A stretch of 29,576 nt of DNA from a virus: positions 1 to 29,576 of IMG/VR virus record IMGVR_UViG_3300047362_000678, one strand, 5' to 3'. The notes below the pieces were generated by a model. The model had not been told where the DNA came from. It was given only the letters and a program-made list of their open reading frames with translations, and did not search any database. A program made the translations under genes and the position numbers. Of this stretch, positions 4,158 to 21,870 are shown one piece after another. The first letter of the stretch is position 1. Each line of letters starts with the position of its first letter.

Positions 4158-6152
4158 ATGGCATTTAAAGTTGGTAGTCAAACAGTTATAGACATAGACT
4201 CCACCGGTGCGACACAGATACAAAGCCAAGGTGGACACGATATTGCTTTATATCCTGATAGTAATGTCTGGATTAAAGAAGGCACCAAATTAATTTTTGA
4301 AGGCACTGTTCCTGATAACTTTGAAGCAAAACTTCAAGCCACATCAGTTACAGCAGATAGAGATATTATTTTGCCTGACGAAGATGGCACTCTCGCTACA
4401 CAAACATACGTCACAAACGCAGTGACTGGCGGGACATTATCGAATACTGATGCACTTGCAGAAGGTTCAACAAATCTTTACTATACAGACGCAAGAGTAG
4501 ATGCTAGAATAGGAAGTGCTGGTGCTAATCTTGATCTAAGTGGAAAAACAACTACAGATCTAGCAGAAGGCACAAACTTATATTATACAGATGCAAGAGT
4601 AGACGCTAGAATTGCAGGCAATACTGGTAGTAGTCTAGATTTAAGTAATAAAACAACTACGGATTTAGCAGAAGGTAGTAATCTATATTACACAACCACA
4701 AGAGCAAACACAGATTTTGATACTAGACTTGCAACAAAAACAACAGCAAATTTAACCGAAGGATCAAATCTTTATTTTACAGATGAACGTGTTGATGACC
4801 GTGTTGCCAATTTATTGGTTGCCGGTACAAATATTACATTATCATATGATGATGCGGCAGGGACATTAACAGTTAATGCTTCATCTACTGGTGGTTATGA
4901 TTTAAGTTCAAACACAACTACAGATTTGGCAGAAGGCAGTAACTTATATTATACAGATGCTAGAGCAGATGCTCGCATTACAAACGCATTGGGTGGCAAT
5001 GTTATTATTGGCGGAAACCTAACAGTTAGTGGAACAACTACAACTGTAGATTCAAATACGGTTAACATCGGCGATGCAATGATTACACTAAATGCTGATG
5101 AAACAGGAACACCAAGCCAGAATGGCGGAATTGAAATTGAACGTGGTACGAGTACAAATGTACAAATACGTTTTAATGAAACATCTGATGCATGGGAATT
5201 TACAAATGATGGTTCTACTTATATAGAATTAGGAACATCAGGAACATTTACTGGTAATACAGATGGTGTAAACGAAGGCACAAATAACTTATATTATACA
5301 GATGCGAGAGTAAGAGCCGCTGTAAGTGCTACAACTGGCTCGGCAGGATATAATGGTTCTACAGGAGCATTTAGTATTCCAGCAAATACATCTCATATTT
5401 CTGAAAGTGGAAACCTATACTATACAGATGCAAGAGTAAGAACACATATTGAAGGTGCAGATCTAGATTTAGGTTCAAATAAAATTAAATATTCAAATGT
5501 TTATAGCCAAACAAGTGATTTACCATCCGCTTCAACATATCACGGTATGTTTGCACATGTACATGGTACAGGTAAAGGTTACTTTGCACATGCAGGAAAT
5601 TGGGTAGAGTTAGCAAATCAAAGCAACATACCTACCAACAATAATCAGTTAACGAACGGAGCAGGGTATGTTACAAGCTCTGGTGTTACAAGTGTAGCAA
5701 CAAGTAATGGTATAACTGGTGGTACAATTACTAGTACAGGAACATTGAGTATGAGTGGTTCGTACACTGGTACGTTCAGTGTTACTGGTGAAATTCGTGC
5801 TACATCAGACGTTACAGCGTATTACAGTTCTGACGAAAAATTAAAAGAAAACGTAGTTGAAATTGATGATGCGATAAATAAAGTTAAGCAAGTTCGCGGC
5901 GTTGAATTTGATTGGACTCAAGAGTATATAGATGCAAAAGGTGGCGAAGATAATTACTTTGTCCGTAAGCACGATGTAGGCGTTATTGCCCAAGAAATTG
6001 AAAAGGTTTTGCCCGAAGTGGTAGCAACCAGAGAAGATGGTACTAAAGCAGTGAAATACGATAGAGTGGTAGCATTGCTAATTAGTGCAGTCAAGGAACA
6101 ACAAAAACAAATAGAAGATCTCAAAGAAGAGATCAATAATATCAGGAGTTAA
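4158..6152 (+). CDS. Tail fibre with YYTDARV repeats and C-terminal S74 domain
   Basis: A 664-residue fibre. The N-terminal ~90 residues (MAFKVGSQTVIDIDSTGATQ) form the likely attachment end. Seven 'AEG-NLYYTDARV' units occupy about residues 98-430; this is a repeat I associate with marine phage fibres. A GGNLTVSGTTTTVD/GGIEIERGTS module near 285-335 and a STYHGMFAHVHGTG/GNWVEL module near 455-485 are shared with the gene at 689. The end is an S74 chaperone domain: S558-D559, KLKENV, GVIAQEIEKVLPEVV, KYDRVVALLISAV, then a coiled coil. The family is known to chaperone trimer folding and self-cleave. The TAA at 6150-6152 is followed after two bases by the next gene, so the two are probably co-translated. 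Confidence 0.87.
   Translation: MAFKVGSQTVIDIDSTGATQIQSQGGHDIALYPDSNVWIKEGTKLIFEGTVPDNFEAKLQATSVTADRDIILPDEDGTLATQTYVTNAVTGGTLSNTDALAEGSTNLYYTDARVDARIGSAGANLDLSGKTTTDLAEGTNLYYTDARVDARIAGNTGSSLDLSNKTTTDLAEGSNLYYTTTRANTDFDTRLATKTTANLTEGSNLYFTDERVDDRVANLLVAGTNITLSYDDAAGTLTVNASSTGGYDLSSNTTTDLAEGSNLYYTDARADARITNALGGNVIIGGNLTVSGTTTTVDSNTVNIGDAMITLNADETGTPSQNGGIEIERGTSTNVQIRFNETSDAWEFTNDGSTYIELGTSGTFTGNTDGVNEGTNNLYYTDARVRAAVSATTGSAGYNGSTGAFSIPANTSHISESGNLYYTDARVRTHIEGADLDLGSNKIKYSNVYSQTSDLPSASTYHGMFAHVHGTGKGYFAHAGNWVELANQSNIPTNNNQLTNGAGYVTSSGVTSVATSNGITGGTITSTGTLSMSGSYTGTFSVTGEIRATSDVTAYYSSDEKLKENVVEIDDAINKVKQVRGVEFDWTQEYIDAKGGEDNYFVRKHDVGVIAQEIEKVLPEVVATREDGTKAVKYDRVVALLISAVKEQQKQIEDLKEEINNIRS
4440..5450 (+). 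repeat. Seven degenerate AEG-NLYYTDARV protein repeats
   Basis: Seven units with the core N-L-Y-(Y/F)-T-(D/T)-x-R are spread across the fibre, spaced roughly 22-30 residues apart at first and then interrupted by two larger modules. The DNA of neighbouring units is similar but not identical, so the array is older than the 12-nt array at the start of the window. Confidence 0.85.
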
Positions 6153-7514: not shown

Positions 7515-8630
7515 ATGTTAAATTTTGGAAGTGCAAAAGGCAGTATGCTAGAGTTTAAAGGTCAAAGTGTTGTTACGCCTTGGGATAGATTAAAGAAACA
7601 TATTTTTGAAAGTTATCCAGTTTACAGTGGTCCACGTATTGATGGTTTTGATAATCTTTTACTTAAAGGTTTAGAATATCAAAAAGAATCTGAAATGGTT
7701 TGGATTATTGATGAAAATGCAATCGAAATAGAAAAAGCAACTTTAAGAGAAGAATTCCCTTGGCACTATAGACCTAATGGAGACGGACTTAACTTTATAC
7801 ACGAGTTTCCTAGATCAGGTAAACGAACAGGCCGCTCATACTCGTGGGGCGATATTAAACTAGTACCAACTGGTGGATATGCACATGGGTATTTAAAAAA
7901 TAAAATTATAGGAACAAATCATGATGCTGACTTTGACATCTTTATGATTAGTTTCCACGAAGCAGAAGCAGATAGAAATTTTGCAAAATTAAAAGAACGT
8001 TTTTCTGATGCACAACATGTTAAAAATGTTGAGGGTATTGGTGAAGCACACAAAGAATGTGCCAAACGTAGTAAAACCGATATGGTATACATTGTAGACG
8101 CCGATGCAGATGTGCTAGGTTCTTTTAAGTTTGATTATATTCCTCCACTTGCTAAACGTAGCAATACAACATATGTATGGAGTGCTCGTAATCCAATTAA
8201 CGGATTAGAGTATGGATACGGGGGAATTAAACTGTTTCCAAAACAACAGTTATTAGAAATGGGACATAACCTTCCTGATTTTAGTACAGGAGTTGCTTTT
8301 TATCAACCAGTAAGTGATGTTAGCAATGTAACAAACTTTAATAAAGATCCTTATAGAACTTGGCGTAGTGCATTTCGTGAGTGTGTTAAACTTGCGAGTA
8401 AGGTTAATCCAAACCAAGTAGATAAAGAGACTATAGAAAGGCTTGAAGCGTGGACTACAATTGATAATGGTGCTCGTTTCGGTCGTTATTGTATTAAAGG
8501 TGCTTTAGAAGGTAAAACATATGGTGAAGAAAATAAAGATAATGTAGAAGCGTTAAATAAAATTAATGACTTTGAATGGTTACGTGAACAATTTGTTGAA
8601 AGTATGAAAAAACGTATTAGTGCAGACTAA
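7515..8630 (+). CDS. Glycosyltransferase-like protein with two related halves
   Basis: A 371-residue protein. From about residue 138 there is a GT-A-like run: FDIFMISFHEAE, a helix, then 'GEAHKECAKRSKTDMVYIVDADADV' containing a DADAD metal-binding-type motif (195-199). An odd feature is an internal echo: 'EMVWIIDENAIE' (60-71) ... 'WGDIKLVP' (111-118) in the N-terminal half matches 'DMVYIVDADADV' ... 'GGIKLFP' in the second half, but the first half lacks the DxD. This suggests an ancient duplication with one degenerate copy. It starts two bases after the previous gene and its stop overlaps the convergent Nudix gene by 4 bases. Substrate unknown. Confidence 0.65.
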   Translation: MLNFGSAKGSMLEFKGQSVVTPWDRLKKHIFESYPVYSGPRIDGFDNLLLKGLEYQKESEMVWIIDENAIEIEKATLREEFPWHYRPNGDGLNFIHEFPRSGKRTGRSYSWGDIKLVPTGGYAHGYLKNKIIGTNHDADFDIFMISFHEAEADRNFAKLKERFSDAQHVKNVEGIGEAHKECAKRSKTDMVYIVDADADVLGSFKFDYIPPLAKRSNTTYVWSARNPINGLEYGYGGIKLFPKQQLLEMGHNLPDFSTGVAFYQPVSDVSNVTNFNKDPYRTWRSAFRECVKLASKVNPNQVDKETIERLEAWTTIDNGARFGRYCIKGALEGKTYGEENKDNVEALNKINDFEWLREQFVESMKKRISAD

Positions 8631-9097
8631 AGCGTATCTAACCAATTTAAACCATCCTCTGAGGCATTCTCGAGGGTGGTTTTTATTTTTGTAACTATCT
8701 CTTTATTATATAATTGTGCTTTGACCCCAGGATGTAACGGTCTAGGCCAATTTCCTATTTTTACCCAACAGTACCCATCACTCTCATTATTAAGTATAGG
8801 CAAAAATTCCTCAAAAACGGCAATGATGAATGTGTTATATTCAAAACGTTTATCAGGACTTACAAATTGATTTAGTGGATATATTTTATTAACACTAGGC
8901 ACAACGCCTAATTCTTCTTCACACTCTCTTAGTAGTGTTTGTACAGGTCTTTCTTTTGGTTTTGCTTTACCACCAAAAAACGCCCATGTACGAGGATGAC
9001 TAGCATCACCGCTTCTTTGTTGTAATAGCACTCTTCCGGTGTCTATTGCTAGAAATAAACAACCTGATGCTCTTATTAGGTTATTTCTTTGAGTCAT
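8627..9097 (-). CDS. Nudix hydrolase
   Basis: A 156-residue protein with a complete Nudix box at residues 43-65: G43-x5-E49-x7-R57-E58-C-E-E61-E62-L-G64-V. This binds Mg2+ and cleaves nucleoside diphosphate linkages. An N-terminal 'GCLFLAIDTGRVLLQQRSG' strand pair and 'TWAFFGGKAKPKE' entry to the box fit the fold. The substrate (dNTP, ADP-ribose, NADH, RNA cap) cannot be told from sequence. It is the last gene of the minus-strand gp14-gp15 unit: its ATG lies one base after the gp15 stop, so translation is coupled. Its 3' end overlaps the stop codon of the convergent glycosyltransferase-like gene and also contains that operon's terminator. Confidence 0.9.
   Translation of the reverse strand: MTQRNNLIRASGCLFLAIDTGRVLLQQRSGDASHPRTWAFFGGKAKPKERPVQTLLRECEEELGVVPSVNKIYPLNQFVSPDKRFEYNTFIIAVFEEFLPILNNESDGYCWVKIGNWPRPLHPGVKAQLYNKEIVTKIKTTLENASEDGLNWLDTL
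8649..8690 (+). terminator. Plus-strand terminator located inside the Nudix coding region
   Basis: Bases 8649-8659 pair with 8672-8682 (11 bp, one G-U), with a 12-base loop that can itself form three pairs, followed on the plus strand by TTTTATTTTT. On the minus strand the hairpin is not followed by a U-run, so it should stop only the glycosyltransferase operon. It is encoded by the C-terminal ~15 codons of the convergent gene. Confidence 0.75.
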
Positions 9098-9098
9098 T

Positions 9099-10460
9099 TT
9101 AGAGATATAATCTCCAGTATCCTTTATTATATATTCCTTCGTAACTGTTTATCCATTGGGTTCCAGTCCATTCTAGTTGATTACCAGTAGCAATATTATT
9201 AACATATTGCTGGTTAGTTATAGTGTCAGCATCAAATGCTTTAATCCAACCTCCACCAGTATATTCAAGTATATCATTATTATCTGCTTGTATACCACTC
9301 CAGTAACCACTCAGTGGAGTTGACTGTGTTATTAGATATCTTTGACCAATAACTGCACCGGGTACAGAACCATCTCCAGGGTAATTGCTTTGAGGATTTA
9401 AAATAGCATCAATAGGATTCATTGTAGTAGTTGGCAACGTACCAGTATCAATTGTGACATCAAGTTTATTAGGATCAGTAGGATGAAAATCTAAACGTCC
9501 TATAATATCATTTGCTTTGTCACTTGGATCATTAGATTTTCGTAAACGTATTTGACTAATTCCTGGGCGTAATTCTCCAAAAGGTCTTAATTCATCAGCC
9601 CAATTTAGTGATAGTCCGGTATTAGGATTTAATGTTGTTCCTTGCTCTGTTAATAGAGAGGCTTCACTATCTTCAAATTTTAATTTTCTATCCTCTAATG
9701 TAATAATTGTATATTGCAATGTTGTAGGATCAAAAGGTTCTTGCTCTTTAAACGCATCTAAATTTTCATCATCTAAACTATATAGTTCATTAATGATATT
9801 GTATATAAGTTTTTGATGTTTAACCTTAGCAGGAGGATTAATGAATATAGGCATTGTAAATCCTAGTGTGGCAACATCAATGATATCATCAATACTACTA
9901 CCTACACTTCTACTGCTCCATTGTGTTGTGGTCATTTCTACAAATGCTAATGCTGACCAATCGAATGGATTATTAGACGTTCTAATATTTAATGAAGGAT
10001 TAAACAGTACCATAATTTGTTCCAATAATTGTAATTTTTGATCTGTATTACTTGTCCAAATATCACAATTCATTTCTAAATTATAAGGAACAGGTTGGTG
10101 TCTTTCTATAGTGTATCTATTACCTATTTCATTATTGTATTCACCAGTAACATCGTTATATTTCTTTTCAAATACTTGTACTTTGTCTACATGTTGTTGA
10201 TCGGTTCTTCTTTCAGGAGCCATATTCAGATTAGTAACATAACAACTAATAAAAGGCACAGTATTCATAATATTTTCACTGTTTTCTCTAGTAATATGTG
10301 CAGCCATCCTATTAATATCACCATAACGTACAGGCACTGTTTGATATATAGGAAGTTTTTCTTCATCTAAACCCATCTGTACATTGAATCCGCCAAACAA
10401 TCTAATAAATTGTTGAATATATCTGCGTATTTGTCTATCATAAAAATATTGTTGTGCCAT
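9099..10460 (-). CDS. gp15: Tail sheath stabiliser/completion protein gp15
   Basis: A 453-residue protein. The N-terminus (QYFYDRQIRRYIQQFIRLFGGFNVQ ... VPVRYGDINRMAAHI) follows the pattern of T4 gp15 (YFYN-RRY-, -L-, -I-V-P-I-Y), as do 'VPYNLEMNCDIWTSNTDQKLQLLEQIM-LFNPSL' and 'GFTMPIFINPP' near 205. T4 gp15 caps the contracted-tail top and joins tail to neck. T4's protein is ~270 residues; the excess here is a C-terminal extension. Its last ~90 residues (GQRYLITQST ... DILEYTGGGWIKAF ... LEWTGTQWINSYEG) resemble surface modules found in phage tail proteins and recur in gp14 and gp18 of this window. ATG overlaps the gp14 stop (TAATG). Function by homology is firm; the extension's role is unknown. 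Confidence 0.85.
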   Translation of the reverse strand: MAQQYFYDRQIRRYIQQFIRLFGGFNVQMGLDEEKLPIYQTVPVRYGDINRMAAHITRENSENIMNTVPFISCYVTNLNMAPERRTDQQHVDKVQVFEKKYNDVTGEYNNEIGNRYTIERHQPVPYNLEMNCDIWTSNTDQKLQLLEQIMVLFNPSLNIRTSNNPFDWSALAFVEMTTTQWSSRSVGSSIDDIIDVATLGFTMPIFINPPAKVKHQKLIYNIINELYSLDDENLDAFKEQEPFDPTTLQYTIITLEDRKLKFEDSEASLLTEQGTTLNPNTGLSLNWADELRPFGELRPGISQIRLRKSNDPSDKANDIIGRLDFHPTDPNKLDVTIDTGTLPTTTMNPIDAILNPQSNYPGDGSVPGAVIGQRYLITQSTPLSGYWSGIQADNNDILEYTGGGWIKAFDADTITNQQYVNNIATGNQLEWTGTQWINSYEGIYNKGYWRLYL

Positions 10461-11524
10461 TAGAAGTCCTCTTTAGGTTTGATAACTTTACTAATTGGTT
10501 GACGTTCTGGGAACTCTTGGTTATCAACAATTGTTGTACTTTCATTGTTAACAAACTGTCCAGCATTGTATGTTTTATCACTCCAGGTTTTGTCCATAAT
10601 ATTATCATATAATCTATGCCATCTACTACCACGAAATACAAATAAGCGATTTGGTTTAAAGTCTGTTCTCACAAAATACTCGCCATCATTTGGTTGTGTT
10701 GGGAATTGATCTCCACTTTGTAGTGTTTCACCATGTTCATAAACTTCTGCAGGTTCATCAACTCCAAATAAGTGGTCCTTTAATGGTAAGTTATTTGGAT
10801 TTGCTTCTTCAGCCGATTTAATAATTGCCTCACTAATATTGATCTCTGTTTTATACATAGATATATCATTCTTTAGACTATCTGGATCATCAGCAGTCCC
10901 AAGTATATCACTGTATTCTTGTGTGTCTGTTAGTGGTGCAACTTTAACACGCCAAATATGTGGCATCCAAGTTTGACTAAACCCTTCACTACCACGAGCG
11001 GCATCCTGCACAACATAAAATTTATTAACAGCGTCTTTATCATAACTTAGTAATAGATCATCTCTTAAATGCGGAAGCTCTAAAACATCTCCTGGCATTA
11101 ATCTTCTACCCATTTTTTCAACCATATCATTCATATGGAAAGTAATGAATAGTGTATCGTTTGTTAGGAACAGACCAAACTGAGTTAAATCAAAATCGTT
11201 ATCGCTAACGTTATATACTCCTCGAAGTTCATATACATCAGGATCGTATTTACGATCTCTGTTTTCCATAAACAGTAAGTCTTGAACTTTGGTTTCGTTA
11301 ATCCAACCTTCTGGATTAATTTCTTCTCCACTGAACAAATCTTTTTCTAAACCACTGCCATAGTTTGGCTCTGTAGCATCTTGTTGGCTTGCCTGTTCTT
11401 TAGGACCTAAGTACTTGTGTACGTGGATTGCAGTACCACCGATATCAAACTGTTCACGGATATTCCAATCCATAAATTTGTAATCGTTGCTTTTGTATGG
11501 TTTATATAAACTAAGTCTTGGCAT
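10460..11524 (-). CDS. gp14: Neck protein gp14
   Basis: A 354-residue protein resembling the neck protein gp14 of marine T4-like phages: 'VYELRGVYNVSDNDFDLTQFGLFLTNDTLFITFHMNDMVEKMGRRLMPGDVLELPHLRDD' region (residues ~97-155), 'NKFYVVQDAARGSEGFSQTWMPHIWRVKVAPL' near 167-198. gp14 with gp13 completes the packaged head and receives the tail. T4 gp14 is ~256 residues; here a ~85-residue C-terminal tail adds one 'DGEYFVRTD ... LFVFRGSRWHRLYD' module shared with gp15 and gp18. First gene of a minus-strand late unit with its own CATAAATA box. The identification rests on recalled family patterns and on being paired with gp15. Confidence 0.8.
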   Translation of the reverse strand: MPRLSLYKPYKSNDYKFMDWNIREQFDIGGTAIHVHKYLGPKEQASQQDATEPNYGSGLEKDLFSGEEINPEGWINETKVQDLLFMENRDRKYDPDVYELRGVYNVSDNDFDLTQFGLFLTNDTLFITFHMNDMVEKMGRRLMPGDVLELPHLRDDLLLSYDKDAVNKFYVVQDAARGSEGFSQTWMPHIWRVKVAPLTDTQEYSDILGTADDPDSLKNDISMYKTEINISEAIIKSAEEANPNNLPLKDHLFGVDEPAEVYEHGETLQSGDQFPTQPNDGEYFVRTDFKPNRLFVFRGSRWHRLYDNIMDKTWSDKTYNAGQFVNNESTTIVDNQEFPERQPISKVIKPKEDF

Positions 11525-11542
11525 AGATTTTTCCTTATATTG

Positions 11543-11550
11543 TATTTATG
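11543..11550 (-). promoter_or_regulatory. Minus-strand late promoter box (CATAAATA)
   Basis: Read on the minus strand the box is CATAAATACAATATAAGG, with the same trailing C and downstream TATA(A/G) context as plus-strand boxes at 2803 and 23864. It lies 18 bases before the gp14 ATG at 11524, and drives gp14-gp15-Nudix. Confidence 0.75.
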
Positions 11551-11553
11551 CGG

Positions 11554-11582
11554 TTGACAAGACTAAATTATGGCTATATAGT
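11554..11582 (+). promoter_or_regulatory. Sigma70-type promoter TTGACA-N17-TATAGT
   Basis: A perfect -35 (11554-11559), 17-base spacer and TATAGT at 11577-11582, followed by AAATATATAG. Almost the same as the promoter at 6369. It is divergent from, and only 4 bases away from, the minus-strand late box, so early and late RNA polymerase forms would compete for this short region. Confidence 0.85.
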
Positions 11583-11617
11583 AAATATATAGCGTAAAAT
11601 AACACAGGAGTTGATAT

Positions 11618-12889
11618 ATGGCTATTTCAGTACCACGCAAGTCTCGTAAACAGAAGCAAAGAGCGGCTATTCGTAAGAAGGGCCAATTGTATAGTGTAGA
11701 TTGGGAACAATCTGAACAATGGGACGGCAAAAAATTTCATCATGAACGCGGTAAAGCATCCAGTGACCTATACAATAATGTAAAAGGCGCCGAACTTGTT
11801 TTGTTTACATATACATGGATGAAGAAAAATGGTTACACTGCTAATGAAATTAAGGCTGCCAAAGCAGGTACAATCACTCCTACAGTAGGTATATATGCTA
11901 AACTACTTCTGGATGGAATGCCAGACTTGCACAAAGCACATGCAGAATATTGGGATTCTCTTCCTGGAACAAGTGGCGAAATGAAGCCTACCACAGTTTT
12001 TGTTAAGGCATCTATTGATAAAGCAATTGCACAGGGTGCTCCGTTGGTAGAACAACGTGAGGCAGAGGCAAAGGCACAAGCAAAAGCAGAAGCAAACGTC
12101 TATAAGCCAACAATTCAAGAAGTTATGCGAGAAACTGCATATAGGATGACTGATCCTCTTGAGGAAATAATTGATGAGTTCATTACAACTCAAGATCCTA
12201 ATGTAGTTAAAAAGTTTGATGCATATAAGGTTCTTGTTAAAGTATCAGCAAAAGCAAATCATGCTAGAATTATTAGAAACTATTACGAAGGTTGCTATGA
12301 TGAAATGCATGAATTACTAAACATGCCAACTTCCACACAACGCAAAAAAATGACTGAGCATGAACAGGATATGCTAAGTCAACTTGAGGAAGGCTATGCT
12401 CATTATAGTACTGCTCAAAAGAAAGCGGCATACGAACTCTACAAGAAAATTATTGATGCTTGTGATATGATTATTACAACTCAGAAAGCCACTAAAAAAC
12501 CGCGTAGGGTTAAAGAAAAAAGTGCAGACCAATTAGTTGCTAAACTTAAACTAAGAGCAACAGATACTGATAACGGTATTGCTAGTGTTAATCCAAGTGG
12601 ACTAATCGGAGCGGTTTGTGCCGTAGTTTTCAACTGTAAGAATCGTAAACTTGGAATTTATGTAGCACAAGACGCTGATGGGTTCCAAGTAAGAGGAACT
12701 ACATTGCAACGTTTTGATGAAACACAAAGTCTACAAAAAACATTGAGAAAACCAAAAGAAACGTTAAATGTTGTCAGAAAAACAACTAAAGCAAAGACTC
12801 TTAAGGAGTTTGGTGCATTAAAGACAACAGAAACAAAACTTAACGGTCGTTTCAATGAGGAGACAGTTCTTCTGGCAGTTTTTAAATAA
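11618..12889 (+). CDS. Unknown basic 423-aa protein under an early-type promoter
   Basis: I do not recognise this family. The first 30 residues are strongly basic (PRKSRKQKQRAAIRKKGQ), suggesting nucleic-acid contact. A short A-E-A-K-A-Q heptad-like helix lies near 148-160, and another Lys/Arg-rich patch (ATKKPRRVKEK) near 290-300. Residues ~300-360 (SADQLVAKLKLRATDTDNGIASVNPSGLIGAVCAVVFNCKNRKLGIYVA) look like a folded alpha/beta domain. An AGGAG site (11607-11611) precedes the ATG. It lies between neck genes gp14 and gp13 but is served by a sigma70-type promoter, so it is likely made early as well as late. Alternatives are a virion DNA-binding protein or a host-takeover factor; neither can be shown. 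Confidence 0.8.
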   Translation: MAISVPRKSRKQKQRAAIRKKGQLYSVDWEQSEQWDGKKFHHERGKASSDLYNNVKGAELVLFTYTWMKKNGYTANEIKAAKAGTITPTVGIYAKLLLDGMPDLHKAHAEYWDSLPGTSGEMKPTTVFVKASIDKAIAQGAPLVEQREAEAKAQAKAEANVYKPTIQEVMRETAYRMTDPLEEIIDEFITTQDPNVVKKFDAYKVLVKVSAKANHARIIRNYYEGCYDEMHELLNMPTSTQRKKMTEHEQDMLSQLEEGYAHYSTAQKKAAYELYKKIIDACDMIITTQKATKKPRRVKEKSADQLVAKLKLRATDTDNGIASVNPSGLIGAVCAVVFNCKNRKLGIYVAQDADGFQVRGTTLQRFDETQSLQKTLRKPKETLNVVRKTTKAKTLKEFGALKTTETKLNGRFNEETVLLAVFK

Positions 12890-12892
12890 ATA
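12885..12892 (+). promoter_or_regulatory. Possible late promoter box (AATAAATA) before gp13
   Basis: AATAAATACTAGCACAGGAG overlaps the end of the preceding gene and ends 19 bases before the gp13 ATG. The first base differs from the T4 consensus, but the trailing C and TAGCA match the contexts at 16902 and 16952. Confidence 0.5.
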
Positions 12893-12911
12893 CTAGCACA
12901 GGAGAATAAGT

Positions 12912-13649
12912 ATGTCCAAAAAAGATGATGCAATAAAAGAAATGGAGATCAGACTCGGCGGAGGAATGGTCGATGTCGAGTTAGATCCAGACCATTATGA
13001 AATTGCTCTTAAAAAGAGTTTCGAAAAATACCGTCAAAGAGCTGAAAATTCAGTTGAGGAAAGTTTTATATACCTGCAACTACAAGTTGACCATGCAGAA
13101 TATACACTTCCCTCTGAGATAATCGAAGTGAAAGATATATACCGTAGGACAACCGGCGTTAGTAGCGGAACCGGTAATGACATTGAACCATTTCAAGCGG
13201 CATACTTAAACACTTATATGTTAGGCGCACACCGTCCTGGCGGACTAACAATGTTTGATTTCATGCACCAGTATAGAGAAACAATGGGTAGGCTTTTTGG
13301 GGCAGAACTATTGTTTACGTGGCGTGTTCAGGATCATAAACTTGTTATACATAGAAAGATTAAAGCAAATGATGATGTTATCTTGCATGTGTATAATCAT
13401 AGACCTGATGAAAACTTATTAGAGGATCCATATTGTGGTCCTTGGATTAAAGATTATGCGTTTGCACATGCTAGGCTTATGTTAGCAGAAGCACGTGGTA
13501 AGTTTACACAAATTGCTGGGCCTCAAGGCGGCACAACAATGAATGCAGATCAACTTCGAACAGACGCACAAGCAGAAATTGATAAACTTGAGCAGGAACT
13601 TACACTATATAGTGAAGGGTCAACTGGTCTATCTTTTGTAATAGGATAA
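12912..13649 (+). CDS. gp13: Neck/head-completion protein gp13
   Basis: A 245-residue protein. The N-terminus 'RLGGGMVDVELDPDHYEIALKKSFEKYRQRAENSVEESFIYLQL' fits the gp13 pattern of T4-like phages (a short charged helix, then LG-x-VxVEL-x3-x-x-A(I/L)-x3-F-x-Y). It continues 'YTLPSEIIEVKDIYRR' and 'GPWIKDYAFAHARLMLAEARGKF' near 178-200. gp13 works with gp14 to close the filled head for tail attachment. It is 22 bases after the preceding gene with an AGGAG site, and 3 bases before the dNMP kinase gene. Here gp13 is on the plus strand while its partner gp14 is on the minus strand. Confidence 0.82.
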   Translation: MSKKDDAIKEMEIRLGGGMVDVELDPDHYEIALKKSFEKYRQRAENSVEESFIYLQLQVDHAEYTLPSEIIEVKDIYRRTTGVSSGTGNDIEPFQAAYLNTYMLGAHRPGGLTMFDFMHQYRETMGRLFGAELLFTWRVQDHKLVIHRKIKANDDVILHVYNHRPDENLLEDPYCGPWIKDYAFAHARLMLAEARGKFTQIAGPQGGTTMNADQLRTDAQAEIDKLEQELTLYSEGSTGLSFVIG

Positions 13650-13652
13650 TAT

Positions 13653-14282
13653 ATGAAAAAAATTGTTGGTATTTGTGGCCTTATTGGACACGGTAAGGAC
13701 ACCGCCGCTGGTTTCTTAATTGAACAAGGATACCAACGTATTAGTTTTGCGGGTGTTTTAAAAGATGCAACTGCGGCATTATTTGGATGGGATAGAATAT
13801 TATTAGAAGGTAACACACCAGAGAGTAGAGTATTCAGAGAACAGGTAGATGAATGGTGGGCTAATCGTTTAGATATTCCAAATTTCACGCCTCGACTTGC
13901 ATTACAACAAATAGGAACTGATGCACTAAGAAAACACTTTCATCCAGATATATGGGTAGCGGCATGTGAGCGCCAAATAGAAATGACTGATAAAAATGTA
14001 GTTATTTCAGATTGTAGATTCTTCAATGAACTAGATGTTATTAAACGTTTGGGCGGAACAACCGTTGTTGTTTGGAGGCATGAAAAACCACTGTGGTGGG
14101 CAACTGCATCCAACATTAACGAGAGTAAAACTAATAATGAACCAAACAATGCAATGCAAACAGTTTTTCCAGAAGTGCATCCAAGTGAGTGGTCATGGGC
14201 TGGCTGGAATTTTGATATTCAAATAAATAACGACTCTGACTTAGATAGTTTAAGAGACCAAGTCATACAAAACATCAATTAA
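13653..14282 (+). CDS. 1: Deoxynucleoside monophosphate kinase (T4 gene 1 type)
   Basis: A 209-residue P-loop kinase. Walker A is 'GLIGHGKDT' (residues 9-17), the GKDT ending typical of T4 dNMP kinase. 'RISFAGVLKDATAALFGWDRILLEG' (29-53) is the lid/substrate region. 'LQQIGTDALRKHFHPDIWV' near 85-103 and 'VISDCRFFNELDVIKRLGG' near 117-135 match the family's acceptor-binding segments. It phosphorylates dNMPs to dNDPs for phage DNA synthesis. It is unusual to find this metabolic gene between gp13 and gp18. There is only a 3-base gap from gp13 and a weak ribosome site (AGGATAATAT), suggesting coupled translation. Confidence 0.88.
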   Translation: MKKIVGICGLIGHGKDTAAGFLIEQGYQRISFAGVLKDATAALFGWDRILLEGNTPESRVFREQVDEWWANRLDIPNFTPRLALQQIGTDALRKHFHPDIWVAACERQIEMTDKNVVISDCRFFNELDVIKRLGGTTVVVWRHEKPLWWATASNINESKTNNEPNNAMQTVFPEVHPSEWSWAGWNFDIQINNDSDLDSLRDQVIQNIN

Positions 14283-14325
14283 CTACATACTTAACTGCTT
14301 ATCTACACTGTTTTACTGACATCCT

Positions 14326-14333
14326 TATAAATA
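14326..14333 (+). promoter_or_regulatory. T4-type late promoter box (TATAAATA) for tail sheath
   Basis: An exact TATAAATA, followed by CATATAG. Using T4 spacing, transcription would begin near 14339, at the base of a perfect 6-bp hairpin (14338-14343 with 14347-14352). The gp18 ATG is at 14382 with AAGGAG at 14367-14372. Confidence 0.88.
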
Positions 14334-14337
14334 CATA

Positions 14338-14352
14338 TAGAACGTAGTTCTA
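14338..14352 (+). other. Hairpin at the predicted 5' end of the tail sheath mRNA
   Basis: TAGAAC GTA GTTCTA forms a 6-bp stem that begins at the predicted late transcription start. A 5'-terminal stem of this kind commonly protects mRNA from 5'-end-dependent decay; that role is inferred. It does not overlap the ribosome binding site. Confidence 0.5.
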
Positions 14353-14381
14353 GCGGATTTTTTTAATAAGGAGACTCCAAC

Positions 14382-16841
14382 ATGGCAAATCTTGTTTCAC
14401 CTGGCGTACAGGTTTCAGTAACAGACGAGTCAGTTTATGGCCCAGCGGGTGCTGGTACTGTTCCTATGTTGTTTATTGCAACAGGAGAGAACAAGACAGA
14501 CCCAACTGGTACAGAAACTGATGGTATTGCAAAATATACCAAATCAGCCAATTCTGGACAACCAGTGCTAGTTACATCACAGAGAGAACTTACCCAATAC
14601 TTTGGTAATGTTGATTTCCGTCAAGTAAGTGGTACAGTCCAACAAGGCGATGAGACAAACGAATATGGTCTATTAGCAGCCTACTCATTTTTAGGTCAAG
14701 CAGCGGCGGCATATATTGTTCGTGCAGATATTAACCTAACAGGCCTAAGACCAGCGACAGCAGAACCAACAGGTCCTGCATCAAATAATACATATTGGTT
14801 AAACCCAACAGGTAGTACTTTTGGTATTCACGAGTATACTGCTTCAGGTGCTTGGGAATTACAAACACCAACAGTAGAAGTAGTATCAACAGCGGGTTCA
14901 GCAACAGCGTCAGCATCGAATGCTGGTGATTACTTAGTTGAAATCATTAGTGATGCAAATGCTACACAAATAAAATATTATCAAGCATCTGGCGGTAACT
15001 GGGTTGCATTAGATAGTGGTTTTGGAACAGACGTAGATTTTGATCCTCACTATACTCAACCAGGAAGCCCAACAACTGGTGATGTTTGGATTAAAACAAC
15101 AACACCTGGTAACGGTGTTAATTTAGACATTAGTCTATACACAACTGCTAGTGGATCTTTTATTTCACAAGCAGGTAGATGGGCAAACGAAGCCGCAAAT
15201 ATCCCAACGGGTATTGCAGGCGACTATAACCAAGACGGTTCAGCAGGTGCTGCTGCTCCACTAAGTGAAGGTCAAATTTGGTACAGTATTGATGATGCAA
15301 ATGGTTTAATTGAAATCAAGCGTTATGATAGTGCAAATACACAATTTGATGATATTTCAACTAGTGCAAGTGTAGCAACAGGTGGTTATGTAATGAATGC
15401 AAGTTTAACACAACCAACCGGTGCACCTACAAATGGAACATATTGGTATGATCCAGATGTAAACGATCTAGATATTTTTGAATGTGCTATTGATAGCGGT
15501 GTTCAAAAATGGTTAAAAGTATCAGACGTACAATACACAACTACTGCTCCAACAACAGACAGTGGTGGTAACCCACTATCAGCAGGTGACTATTGGGTAG
15601 ACACTGACGATGCTGGTTATCCGGCAATTTATAGACATAACGGTAGTACATGGGTCAAAAAGGACAACAGTGACCAAACAACCCCTAATGGCGTCGTATT
15701 TGGCGACATTATTGATACGGTAACTGCTCCAGCAGCGTATGTTGCTTCTGGTAATGTTCTACTAGGTGGTCCTAATCCACTAATTTACCCAACAGGTACA
15801 ACAGCCGTTAATATGTGTCGTAGTGCTGGTGGTGTTCGTAAATATGACAGTTCACTAGCAACTGCATGGAAATGGCGTAATGCAGCAGGCAACCAAGCAG
15901 ATGGCAGTGGTTCTTTTGGTAGAAAAGCACAAAGAAAGGCTGTTGTTGAAGGCATGCAGGCAAGTGCTTCAAGCTCAAAACTTCGTGAAGAAACAATTAA
16001 CTTCCGTTTAATTGCATCTCCAGGTTATCCTGAGATGATGGATGAAATGGTTACACTAAACAGTGACAGAAATGAAACTGCATTTGTAATTGTTGATACA
16101 CCATTCCGTATTAATGCTACAGAAGCAGTAAGTTGGGTTCAGGGCACAAATGCTACTGAAAACGGCGAATCAGGTCTTGTAACACAAAATACATATGCAG
16201 CAGCATATTATCCAAGTTGTTTAACTACAGATCCTGTAAGCGGTAAGAGCGTTGTTGCTCCTGCTTCACATACAGTACTGTATACATATGCTTATAGTGA
16301 TAATGTAAGTTATCAGTGGTTTGCTCCAGCAGGTCTAACACGTGGTGTTGTACAAAACGCTACTAATGTTGGTTACCTAAATAGTGAAAACGAGTTTGTT
16401 GCTCTATCACTAACACAGGGCGACAGAGATGCAATGTATGAAAACAAACTAAATCCAATTGCACGTTTCCCAAGTGAAGGTATTATTGTGTTTGGTCAGA
16501 AGACACTGGCGGCAGGCGCAAGTGCTCTAGATCGTGTAAATGTTGCACGTCTAACAGCATACTTGAGAGAGCGTTTTGCAGTTATTGGCAGACCTTACTT
16601 GTTTGAGCCAAATGACTTAACTACAAGAGGTAATGCTAAGGCAACGTTTGATGGATTCTTGGCTAATATTTTAGCACAACGTGGTGTATATGATTTTGCT
16701 GTTGTTTGTGATTCAACAAACAACACACCAGCAAGAATTGATGCAAATGAATTATACATTGATGTTGCTATTGAGCCGACTAAGGCTGCAGAATTTATTT
16801 ACATTCCAATTCGTATTGTTAACACAGGCGAATTAAGTTAA
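14382..16841 (+). CDS. gp18: Tail sheath protein gp18 with inserted repeat domain
   Basis: An 819-residue sheath protein. The N-terminal 'LVSPGVQVSVTDESVY' and 'AYSFLGQAAAAYIVRADI' (residues ~105-122) are typical of myophage sheaths. The C-terminal half (VFGQKTLAAGASALDRVNVARLTAYLRERFAVIGRPYLFEPND ... FIYIPIRIVNTGELS) is the conserved contractile core. T4 gp18 is 659 residues. The extra length lies at residues ~125-430 and comprises six degenerate units of the form 'G-x-Y-W-x-D ... I-x-x-Y-x-x-x-x-W'. This outward domain is probably displayed on the tail surface. The gene has its own late promoter, 5' leader hairpin, strong ribosome site and terminator, as expected for an abundant virion protein. 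Confidence 0.93.
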   Translation: MANLVSPGVQVSVTDESVYGPAGAGTVPMLFIATGENKTDPTGTETDGIAKYTKSANSGQPVLVTSQRELTQYFGNVDFRQVSGTVQQGDETNEYGLLAAYSFLGQAAAAYIVRADINLTGLRPATAEPTGPASNNTYWLNPTGSTFGIHEYTASGAWELQTPTVEVVSTAGSATASASNAGDYLVEIISDANATQIKYYQASGGNWVALDSGFGTDVDFDPHYTQPGSPTTGDVWIKTTTPGNGVNLDISLYTTASGSFISQAGRWANEAANIPTGIAGDYNQDGSAGAAAPLSEGQIWYSIDDANGLIEIKRYDSANTQFDDISTSASVATGGYVMNASLTQPTGAPTNGTYWYDPDVNDLDIFECAIDSGVQKWLKVSDVQYTTTAPTTDSGGNPLSAGDYWVDTDDAGYPAIYRHNGSTWVKKDNSDQTTPNGVVFGDIIDTVTAPAAYVASGNVLLGGPNPLIYPTGTTAVNMCRSAGGVRKYDSSLATAWKWRNAAGNQADGSGSFGRKAQRKAVVEGMQASASSSKLREETINFRLIASPGYPEMMDEMVTLNSDRNETAFVIVDTPFRINATEAVSWVQGTNATENGESGLVTQNTYAAAYYPSCLTTDPVSGKSVVAPASHTVLYTYAYSDNVSYQWFAPAGLTRGVVQNATNVGYLNSENEFVALSLTQGDRDAMYENKLNPIARFPSEGIIVFGQKTLAAGASALDRVNVARLTAYLRERFAVIGRPYLFEPNDLTTRGNAKATFDGFLANILAQRGVYDFAVVCDSTNNTPARIDANELYIDVAIEPTKAAEFIYIPIRIVNTGELS
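14755..15665 (+). repeat. Six degenerate 'G-x-Y-W ... Y ... W' repeats within gp18
   Basis: Units with cores NTYWLNPTG, GDYLVEIIS, GDVWIKTTT, GQIWYSIDD, GTYWYDPDV and GDYWVDTDD are each followed after ~10-18 residues by an I/L-x-x-Y-type strand and a final G-x-W-type aromatic. They are spaced about 40-60 residues apart. Related single or double copies close gp14 and gp15. Confidence 0.75.
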
Positions 16842-16993: not shown

Positions 16994-17638
16994 ATGGCTG
17001 TAATTACAAATTTCGGTGTCCCTACAACTAGCGGCAATGGTGACGGCGCTACATTAATGCCGAAACTACAATATCGTTTCCGTGTTACATTTGAAGGCTT
17101 AGGTGGTATTAACGAAGGACCACTAGTAACTCGTAACGTTATTAGCGTTTCACGTCCAACTATTGACCACGAAGATGTAACTATTGACACCTATAACTCA
17201 AAGATTCGTCTAGCAGGTAAACATACTTGGCAGGACATCACATTAACATTAAGAGATGACATTGATAGTAATGTTATTAAAGCTCTTGATACACAATTAA
17301 GTAATCAGGTAAACCACTTAACACAAACATCTGCAAAGTCTGGTGCAGAGTACAAGTTTAAAATGTACATTGAAACATTAGACGGCAGTAGTGCTATTGA
17401 CGGCGAAGGCGTACTAGATAGATGGGAACTAGTAGGTTGTTTCTTACCAAACGTAGCATATGGAGATGTTAACTACGGTTCATCTGAGATGATTAATATC
17501 ACAGCAACAATTCGCTTTGATAATGCATCGCATGAAATTAAGAGTGGCACCAATCAAACAACCGATACACTTTCAGCAGGAACAGTGAACGTCGGAGGAC
17601 AACAATCAATTAGTACTACTGACGGCACAACTGGCTAA
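16994..17638 (+). CDS. gp19: Tail tube protein gp19
   Basis: A 214-residue protein. Tail tube signs are 'PKLQYRFRVTFEGLGG' (residues 23-38), 'RNVISVSRPTIDHEDVTIDTYNSKIRLAGKHTWQDITLTLRDD' (47-89), and 'WELVGCFLPNVAYGDVNYGSSEMINITATIRFDNA' (142-176). These are the T4 gp19 beta-barrel strands that polymerise to form the inner tube. Residues ~178-214 are a Ser/Thr/Gly-rich tail of low complexity, not expected in the compact T4 protein (163 residues); it could be lumenal or flexible. It is located directly after gp18, the usual T4-like order, with two late-type boxes upstream. Confidence 0.92.
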   Translation: MAVITNFGVPTTSGNGDGATLMPKLQYRFRVTFEGLGGINEGPLVTRNVISVSRPTIDHEDVTIDTYNSKIRLAGKHTWQDITLTLRDDIDSNVIKALDTQLSNQVNHLTQTSAKSGAEYKFKMYIETLDGSSAIDGEGVLDRWELVGCFLPNVAYGDVNYGSSEMINITATIRFDNASHEIKSGTNQTTDTLSAGTVNVGGQQSISTTDGTTG

Positions 17639-17650
17639 TAGGTAGTTAAA

Positions 17651-18340
17651 ATGGGTAGTTACTTAGGCGATTTAGCAACAGATGTTTATGGTATAACCAG
17701 TGCTAATTCTACAATACAGCCATTGACGCCTAGGATGCGATTCAATTTTACGGCAATATTAAACTTCACCGACGCTAATGGCGTTGGTGGAGGTTTAGTT
17801 ATGAAACGTATACAGTCAGTTTCGATGCCGGGTACACAAAAACGCCAACAGGTAGTAAATCAATATAATAAAAAACGTATAATACATACTGGTGTAGATT
17901 ATTCTCCAGTATCATTAGTTGCCTATGATGATAGATCAGGGCAGATAGAATCATTAATTAAGTCATATAACAAATACTATTTTCATAATGTATCTAACTT
18001 GGATGTACCTTCAGATGTAGATATATATGCTGATGATATTATTTCAGATACATTTTCAGGAACAAGAGGCTCTTCAGAAGCAGGTTTTAAACTAAGAAGT
18101 AATAGAAACTTTTTAAAGTCACTGGTTATTATGCGTAAAAATAGTGCAGAAGACGCCAACCTAATAATATTAAAGAACCCTTTTATATCCTCAATTGAGG
18201 GCGATACCTTAAATTATGGCGATAGTAATCCAGTACAGTACACATTTAACTTTGCATATGAAGGTTTTGAAATTCTAACAGGATCTCCCGCAGAGGACCA
18301 ATTCCAACAAGCCATTTCAGTACTTGATGAGCAGGTATAA
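17651..18340 (+). CDS. Second tail-tube-like protein
   Basis: A 229-residue protein whose layout follows gp19: 'LTPRMRFNFTAILNFTD' replaces PKLQYRFRVTF, 'KRIQSVSMPGTQKRQQVVNQYNKKRIIHTGVDYSPVSLVAYDD' replaces the RNVISVSRP ... LRDD segment, and 'ISSIEGDTLNYGDSNPVQYTFNFAYEGF' replaces the C-terminal GDVNYGSSEMINITATIRF. Divergence is high. In T4, gp48 and gp54 are tube-fold baseplate proteins that start tube polymerisation, and other myophages have tube-initiator paralogues. A tube initiator, tube cap or baseplate hub junction role is therefore plausible but inferred. It begins 12 bases after gp19, so it probably shares its transcript, at a lower translation level (poor ribosome site, GTAGTTAAA). 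Confidence 0.75.
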   Translation: MGSYLGDLATDVYGITSANSTIQPLTPRMRFNFTAILNFTDANGVGGGLVMKRIQSVSMPGTQKRQQVVNQYNKKRIIHTGVDYSPVSLVAYDDRSGQIESLIKSYNKYYFHNVSNLDVPSDVDIYADDIISDTFSGTRGSSEAGFKLRSNRNFLKSLVIMRKNSAEDANLIILKNPFISSIEGDTLNYGDSNPVQYTFNFAYEGFEILTGSPAEDQFQQAISVLDEQV

Positions 18341-21180: not shown

Positions 21181-21870
21181 ATGAGACCTACACAAGTTTA
21201 CACTGATCCTAACGGACAGTCTATTGAATTTTATATTCCAGAACCACATACAAAAATATGTATTAACGTATCAGGCGGCGCTGATAGTGCTATTATGTTG
21301 TATATGTTAATAAATTATTGTACTAAAAATATACCAGATGCAGAAATACATGTTATTACATGTGCTAACGTAGTAAAAGGTTGGTACAATGCAAAATGGA
21401 GTGTCAGTGTAATTGACAAAGTACAAGAACTGACAGGCACAACATTAATTAAAAGTCATTATACATATTATAGTGATGACCAACGTAGAGAAGAATTAAA
21501 TGAAGCAGAAAAGTTATGTCATAAGAATCATGGGATAACATTTACTATTCACGGAACAACACAAAATCCTGATAAATCTATTGAGTATTTACAAAAAGGT
21601 AGACATGCACCGCGTGATGCTGGCCATGGAAGGCCAGCATATAGTCAATTAAATGACAGAGTTGTGCGGTGGATGCCAGTCATGAATGTTGATAAACGTT
21701 TAGTAGCATACTTATACAAACATTTTGATATGTTAGATGATTTATTACCGTTTACAAGAAGTTGTGAACAACATAGTGAGGATAATACAGATAAACCAAG
21801 TTGGATGGTAACACATTGTGGTAAATGCTGGTGGTGTAAGGAAAGAGAATGGGCATTCGGAAAATTGTAA
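21181..21870 (+). CDS. PP-loop ATPase, QueC-like (7-deazaguanine synthase-type)
   Basis: A 229-residue protein. The PP-loop 'NVSGGADSAIML' (SGGADS, 31-36) binds ATP and activates a carboxyl or similar group as an adenylate. The C-terminal 'RSCEQ ... THCGKCWWCKEREWAF' (C195, C213, C216, C219) follows the QueC zinc signature S-C-x(n)-C-G-x-C-x2-C-x2-R/E-x-A-F. QueC makes preQ0 for queuosine and for 7-deazaguanine DNA modification. The middle region (residues 55-165) differs from standard QueC: the YGQRH motif after the PP-loop is not visible, so a different substrate, as in PAPS-reductase-like PP-loop enzymes, is possible. No other Que/dpd gene is visible in the window. It overlaps the next gene by 22 bases. 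The start lacks a good ribosome site. Confidence 0.75.
   Translation: MRPTQVYTDPNGQSIEFYIPEPHTKICINVSGGADSAIMLYMLINYCTKNIPDAEIHVITCANVVKGWYNAKWSVSVIDKVQELTGTTLIKSHYTYYSDDQRREELNEAEKLCHKNHGITFTIHGTTQNPDKSIEYLQKGRHAPRDAGHGRPAYSQLNDRVVRWMPVMNVDKRLVAYLYKHFDMLDDLLPFTRSCEQHSEDNTDKPSWMVTHCGKCWWCKEREWAFGKL
21617..21640 (+). other. Strong GC-rich hairpin inside the PP-loop gene
   Basis: ATGCTGGCC (21617-21625) pairs perfectly with GGCCAGCAT (21632-21640) around a 6-base loop. This is a stable 9-bp stem in an otherwise AT-rich coding region. It encodes the 'DAGHGRPA' segment and has no T-run behind it. Confidence 0.75.

Follow-up and report, generated by a model that had tools for sequence, protein, structure and literature searches.

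A six-copy β-meander module in the tail sheath of a marine Rak2-like jumbo phage and its likely copy in a neck protein

The tail sheath proteins of large phages are described as multi-domain, often with immunoglobulin-like (Ig-like) additions, and RaK2 is listed by Evseev et al. with four domains (PMC9230969). In their "type 3" sheaths, represented by the 888-amino-acid RaK2 protein, the N- and C-terminal core is alike, and accessory β-domains, largest in jumbo phages, lie between its parts and away from the tube; adhesion, appendage binding or stability have been proposed as their roles (PMC9230969). In T4 gp18, the same chain position between the two core halves is occupied by domain I (residues 98-188), a six-stranded β-barrel with a helix, and domain II (residues 88-97 and 189-345), a two-layer β-sandwich (PMC3004832). 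Sheath protein from RaK2 undergoes self-assembly and withstands truncation at the C terminus (PMC8618960). Here we analyzed the window, the whole 29,576-base virus record IMGVR_UViG_3300047362_000678, in which the accessory region of the tail sheath protein gp18 is an array of six copies of one unit of about 45 amino acids. The unit likely recurs in a gp14-like neck protein, and a similar-looking domain ends the tail terminator gp15.

The DNA of the window comes from a marine jumbo myophage of the Rak2-like group and covers part of its genome. In tblastn searches with gp18, gp15 and the gp14-like protein as queries, the best relatives were Rak2-like jumbo phages, namely PA5oct, Phosso, Atu_ph07, SCTP-2, Vibrio 2.275, 121Q/PBECO4, GAP32, RaK2, Munch and CBB. 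Escherichia phage Sharanji, recorded on E. coli K-12 MG1655, is a cultured Rak2-like phage. Many marine relatives were found in IMG/VR, and the best 80 of 125 for the sheath and the best 80 of 141 for gp15 were retained; from two further scans with wider profiles, 80 relatives each were retained. The relatives counted below are not independent of one another.

The gp18 protein (819 amino acids; 14382..16841, plus strand) matched PF17482 at 2.1e-11, exceeding the family cut-off, and the tail sheath family phrog_10581 at 1.6e-204. Its AlphaFold2 model, with a mean predicted local distance difference test score (pLDDT) of 89.4, aligned with the Klebsiella phage sheath 9f4a (Z 34.3 over 355 residues) and the T4 sheath 3j2m (Z 29.1 over 326 residues). 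The match covers only about 350 of the 819 residues, that is, the core, and in its N- and C-terminal parts gp18 has the conserved sheath core fold of the T4 gp18 type. A profile of 61 sheaths aligned residues 60-115 with T4 residues 40-83 and residues 571-816 with T4 residues 415-648, so that the edges of the gap stand at residue 115 (T4 83) and residue 571 (T4 415). Since T4 domains I and II lie inside this gap, the insert of gp18 (residues ~117-435, about 319 amino acids; 14730..15686, plus strand; pLDDT 83-96) sits in the domain I-II slot, T4 region 88-345. Judged from the T4 slot, we infer that the insert faces outward. The sheath is 659 amino acids long in T4, 714 in XacN1 and 879-1091 in nine Rak2-like references.

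An initial annotation of the window, made from the sequence alone, had proposed that gp18 carries six degenerate units and that the same aromatic module decorates gp14 and gp15. All the motifs it quoted were found at their loci. We then set the unit boundaries by eye on the window sequence and scored each unit by a hidden Markov model (HMM) built from the other units, against 861-1281 shuffled or reversed decoys each. In this leave-one-out test every unit of the window scored above all of its decoys, and in the AlphaFold2 model each of the six forms three short strands, a β-meander of about 45 amino acids. The units, all on the plus strand, are S1 (residues 122-167, 14745..14882), with 29.6 bits against a decoy maximum of 12.9 and strands at 137-140, 149-152 and 158-160; S2 (166-214, 14877..15023), with 15.0 against 12.2 and strands at 184-190, 195-203 and 206-209; S3 (216-270, 15027..15191), with 15.1 against 11.6 and strands at 235-238, 250-254 and 259-263; S4 (272-330, 15195..15371), with 17.3 against 9.7 and strands at 299-304, 309-316 and 321-324; S5 (336-383, 15387..15530), with 29.6 against 12.4 and strands at 354-356, 365-371 and 374-379; and S6 (380-432, 15519..15677), with 33.8 against 17.9 and strands at 404-407, 415-419 and 424-426.

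The same test on the relatives placed 61/61, 20/59, 48/60, 29/41, 53/61 and 60/61 sequences of S1 to S6, respectively, above all decoys; S4 was scored in 41 of the 61 sheaths, the remaining ones being too divergent in length there. Profile-profile comparison gave probabilities of 98% for S1 with S5, 96% for S1 with S6, and about 90% for S3 with S4, S3 with S6, S4 with S6 and S5 with S6, while 70 control windows taken from the same proteins reached at most 12.7% against S1 to S6. S2 was the weakest unit, its best profile-profile partner being S4 at about 50%, and in several unit pairs the aligned stretches were short (9-15 columns). The tandem repeat in gp18 is genuine, and T4 gp18 gave no match to any of its units. 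A tblastn search with the insert alone recovered 15 records, all of them sheaths of PA5oct-type, Atu_ph07, Phosso and SCTP-2 phages. A profile of the natural units gave 11 matches against PDB sequences, with a best E of 0.39 and none with a phage context; against PHROGs, the natural units matched families of tail fibre, virion structural, minor head and head-tail adaptor proteins.

Jumbo-phage sheaths with outer accessory domains have been described before, and the six-copy repeat is of this kind. The available text of the "type 3" study does not describe a tandem repeat (PMC9230969), and the repeat is unnamed in the titles and abstracts of the literature searched, whose full texts were covered only partly. 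That a decoration along the whole tail is not typical of T4, as had been remarked, is true but unsurprising, given that outer accessory sheath domains are published for RaK2 among others (PMC9230969).

The module was then analyzed in the gp14-like protein, a probable gp14 (neck or head closure; 354 amino acids; 10460..11524, minus strand), which adjoins gp15. Its identification with T4 gp14 is probable and rests on synteny and one PHROG match in 54: phrog_11591 (virion structural protein) was matched by 54/54 members of the family and phrog_460 (head closure Hc2) by 1/54, at 1.1e-5. Alignment by hhalign to the single T4 gp14 sequence was non-significant (probability 0.2%), and the search of solved structures gave nothing at E≤1. 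Residues 258-312 (10589..10753, minus strand) form a unit with profile-profile probabilities of 83, 74 and 73% to S1, S5 and S6 (scores 25-27, controls at most 14.6); control probabilities were at most 2.7% for S1 and S6 and 4.6% for S5. By the sheath-unit HMM the gp14 unit of the window scored 7.9 bits, narrowly above the highest decoy at 7.1, and 46/54 relatives exceeded the 99th decoy percentile, 31/54 exceeding all decoys. The gp14 proteins of RaK2 and 121Q showed two units each by the same HMM, and up to three by a gp14 HMM and the motif. A 611-amino-acid gp14 relative on contig L221 has two units, the better at E 6.9e-9 with the sheath-only HMM. The gp14 and gp18 units are homologous in these comparisons, and by sequence the module likely reaches into gp14. 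Beyond the Rak2-like group, tblastn with the gp14 unit gave E 0.09 or worse among the matches listed.

Elsewhere in related contigs, the sheath-unit HMM found single units at L221:3878-5710, L132:15701-16405 and L165:8070-8516; the carriers in these contigs include the 611-amino-acid gp14 relative, with its two units, and small proteins of 149-235 amino acids of unknown kind.

HMMs of the gp18, gp14 and gp15 extensions each matched 10/10 Rak2-like references, the gp15 match being limited to the second half of the domain in four enterobacterial phages. None of the three matched T4. XacN1 lacks the gp18 and gp15 extensions and has a gp14 match of 12.5 bits against a decoy maximum of 5.6, so that the three need not have been gained jointly. 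The extensions are, to judge from these matches, old features of the group, and the earlier picture of a module added along the axis of neck and sheath misleads. A recent lateral gain by the window phage was rejected, given the presence of the extensions in all ten references. Nor are the three proteins longer than their T4 counterparts by the length of the module, as had been claimed: gp18 is 160 amino acids longer with an insert of about 319 replacing T4 88-345, gp15 is 181 longer with a C-terminal domain of only about 108, and gp14 is 98 longer with a unit of about 50.

Within the group the insert is less conserved than the core. Identity to the window was 52% in the insert versus 78% in the core of gp18 (52 relatives), 53 versus 77% in gp15 and 72 versus 81% in gp14, and 9 of the 10 insert tryptophans were retained by 94% or more of 53 sequences. 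Low identity with retained tryptophans is consistent with a constant fold whose surface is free to change, a pattern that does not separate bracing from adhesion.

The gp15 protein (tail sheath stabiliser or tail terminator; 453 amino acids; 9099..10460, minus strand) has the fold and the family of the T4 gp15 terminator. PF16724 was matched at 2.2e-26 and was present in 72/72 members, and model residues 2-213 aligned with T4 gp15 4huh at Z 15.6 (169 aligned residues, root-mean-square deviation 2.9); as for gp18, the matches from the structure searches fell on the core of the protein. A β-rich middle region of about 105 amino acids (residues 240-345; 9426..9743, minus strand; strands at 259-263, 266-270, 303-306, 319-325 and 332-337) lacks the module motif, is absent from T4 gp15 and shows 56% identity versus 77% in the core. 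The C-terminal domain (residues 346-453, about 108 amino acids; 9102..9425, minus strand) contains the two quoted motifs and was modeled by AlphaFold2 as two small meanders, with strands at 374-377, 397-400 and 405-409 and at 418-422, 428-431 and 436-438; pLDDT there was mostly about 90, and the predicted TM-score of the whole protein was 0.43.

The proposal of one module in three proteins is supported for gp18 and gp14 but not for gp15. The motif letters of two related units are present, but the sheath-unit HMM placed 0/72 gp15 C-termini above all decoys (6/72 above the 99th percentile), and in a second HMM set-up 1/149 exceeded all decoys and 41/149 the 99th percentile. DUF2793 (PF10983), the N-terminal domain of RcGTA-type tail fibres such as R7M ORF41 and already named as a candidate by the initial annotation, fits better. 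A profile of 11 sequences seeded from R7M ORF41 (Pfam-confirmed at 4.6e-20) scored 26.7-27.3 against gp15, co-linear across both motifs, versus at most 13.1 for 35 controls. The corresponding HMM placed 110/149 gp15 C-termini above the 99th decoy percentile and 36/149 above all decoys, and 0/149 of the N-terminal parts. Residues ~367-440 of gp15 are co-linear with the second half of DUF2793, sharing the order G-x-Y-hydrophobic, W, a hydrophobic run, W and then G-x-x-W; the N-terminal third of the aligned DUF2793 fibres has no counterpart in gp15. Formal membership by Pfam cut-off was rejected, with PF10983 in 0/72 gp15 members at E≤1 and in no part of the window at E≤10. By sequence criteria the gp15 C-terminus is best named DUF2793-like, and its kinship to the sheath units is unproven.

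The gp15 domain could still belong to the same family as a remote member with two units, beyond the reach of sequence tools, and the initial annotation would then hold for all three proteins; we regard this as a tentative possibility, somewhat short of even odds. The two successive three-strand meanders of the model have the same motif order, and when gp14 units were included in the training set, 40/72 gp15 C-termini exceeded the 99th decoy percentile and 6/72 all decoys. The profile of the first gp15 unit (gp15a) scored 24 (67%) against S1, barely above its best control of 20.3. This kinship is opposed by the failure of the HMM built from sheath units alone and by the short aligned stretches; in addition, DUF2793 scored at most 22 against the sheath units, over 9 columns, and the DUF2793 HMM placed 0/147 sheaths above all decoys.

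As to function, we suggest, with a probability of roughly 55%, that the unit is a generic phage structural module for bracing or docking on the virion exterior. In gp18, a tandem array of six copies takes the place of T4 domains I and II. Each copy consists of a proline-led linker and a three-strand antiparallel meander, with the patterns G-x-Y/W-W-x-D, I/L-x-x-Y-x-G and W-V, and is probably held together by its two tryptophans; the gp14-like protein likely adds one copy, and gp15 a similar-looking DUF2793-like domain. The module would belong to a class used repeatedly by tailed phages, in fibres and in other proteins of the virion, and may have been inherited vertically within the group, its surface evolving fast around a fixed core. 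Its main role, we infer, would be structural, bracing adjacent sheath subunits and the neck and docking decoration proteins or fibres, with any contact to glycans secondary. CBB and phAPEC6, of the same phage group, likewise decorate the tail surface: both tails carry hairs (PMC5259590, PMC7247149), and in phAPEC6 hair fibres stand in three rings on the sheath, and both the collar and the distal tail bear decoration proteins (PMC7247149). Docking partners therefore exist in the group. The hair and whisker fibres of these phages are long and occur at certain places, whereas the module here is part of each sheath subunit (PMC5259590, PMC7247149).

Several points weigh against bracing or docking. 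The role is predicted, and the outward position was taken from the T4 slot. Hairs in phAPEC6 are found at three rings only, and a domain in every ring cannot alone place them. Reuse of the motif in tail fibres would suit adhesion too, and fast evolution of the surface is also compatible with selection by host contact.

An alternative, in line with the initial annotation, is that the modules coat the tail and neck and bind glycans with low affinity at many sites, which would help the phage stay at the host surface. Each unit has two conserved tryptophans and often one tyrosine, the units match tail-fibre PHROGs, and adhesion is among the roles proposed by Evseev et al. for accessory sheath domains (PMC9230969). 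PF02839 (CBM5/12) appeared in 2/72 gp15 relatives, with a best E of 0.053, under the cut-off. On the other hand, the tryptophans are nearly invariant and occupy the same strand positions in every unit, which suits residues of a core better than those of a binding face. Moreover, DUF2793, which the gp15 domain resembles, forms the conserved N terminus of RcGTA-type fibres, a part presumed to attach to the megatron protein and distinct from the receptor-binding end (PMC8265664). In Pfam searches at E≤10, no carbohydrate-binding or Ig family was found on the gp18 insert, leaving unsupported the earlier labels of sugar-binding and, with single units considered as three-strand meanders of about 45 amino acids, Ig-like. 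Membership in CBM5/12 was rejected, PF02839 being absent from the gp18 insert and the gp15 and gp14 C-termini of the window. We consider such a coat unlikely; sugar binding by the module is a guess, possible but unproven. In a bolder and still less probable form, weak single contacts along the whole tail would sum and hold it to host glycans before contraction: about 900 copies of one fibre-type module would cover the sheath, given about 25 rings (if the tail is phAPEC6-like) of six subunits with six modules each, and the gp14 copies would mark the neck.

Least probable of all is that the three extensions are unrelated and owe their likeness to a chance recurrence of G-x-W and Y-x-G-x-x-W turns among β-rich proteins of phages, since the gp18 units recover each other and gp14 above all decoys, the gp14-sheath probabilities far exceed their controls and the 611-amino-acid gp14 relative carries a strong unit, although gp15 fails the sheath-unit HMM and several aligned stretches are short.

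Some features of other genes in the window also stood out. Two fibre genes, at 689-2746 and 4158-6152, contain motif-like stretches at 1889-2059 and 5424-5624 (PSASTYHGMFAHVHGTG..YFAHAGNWV), which the sheath-unit HMM missed; both S74-chaperone fibre proteins match phrog_9729, phrog_677 (baseplate wedge tail fibre connector) and phrog_32934. A MutT/NUDIX hydrolase gene (8627-9097, minus strand) adjoins gp15, and such a neighbor is likewise annotated in PA5oct, 121Q, GAP32, RaK2, Munch and Vibrio 2.275. After the sheath, two consecutive genes (16994-17638 and 17651-18340) resemble two different tail-tube proteins; at this position three tail-tube genes are listed in RaK2 and GAP32. The predicted protein at 21181-21870 starts with SGGADSA, which we take to be typical of ATP-pyrophosphatase (QueC/NAD-synthase-like) enzymes.

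With the repeat, the outer domains of jumbo-phage sheaths, so far unexplained, have an identifiable building block. One module may connect sheath, neck and fibre proteins, and its role can be tested in cultured Rak2-like phages. If the module is only structural, it would be a clean case of the reuse of a small β-unit by phages; if it is adhesive, it would revise the view that host contact is the business of fibres and baseplate only.

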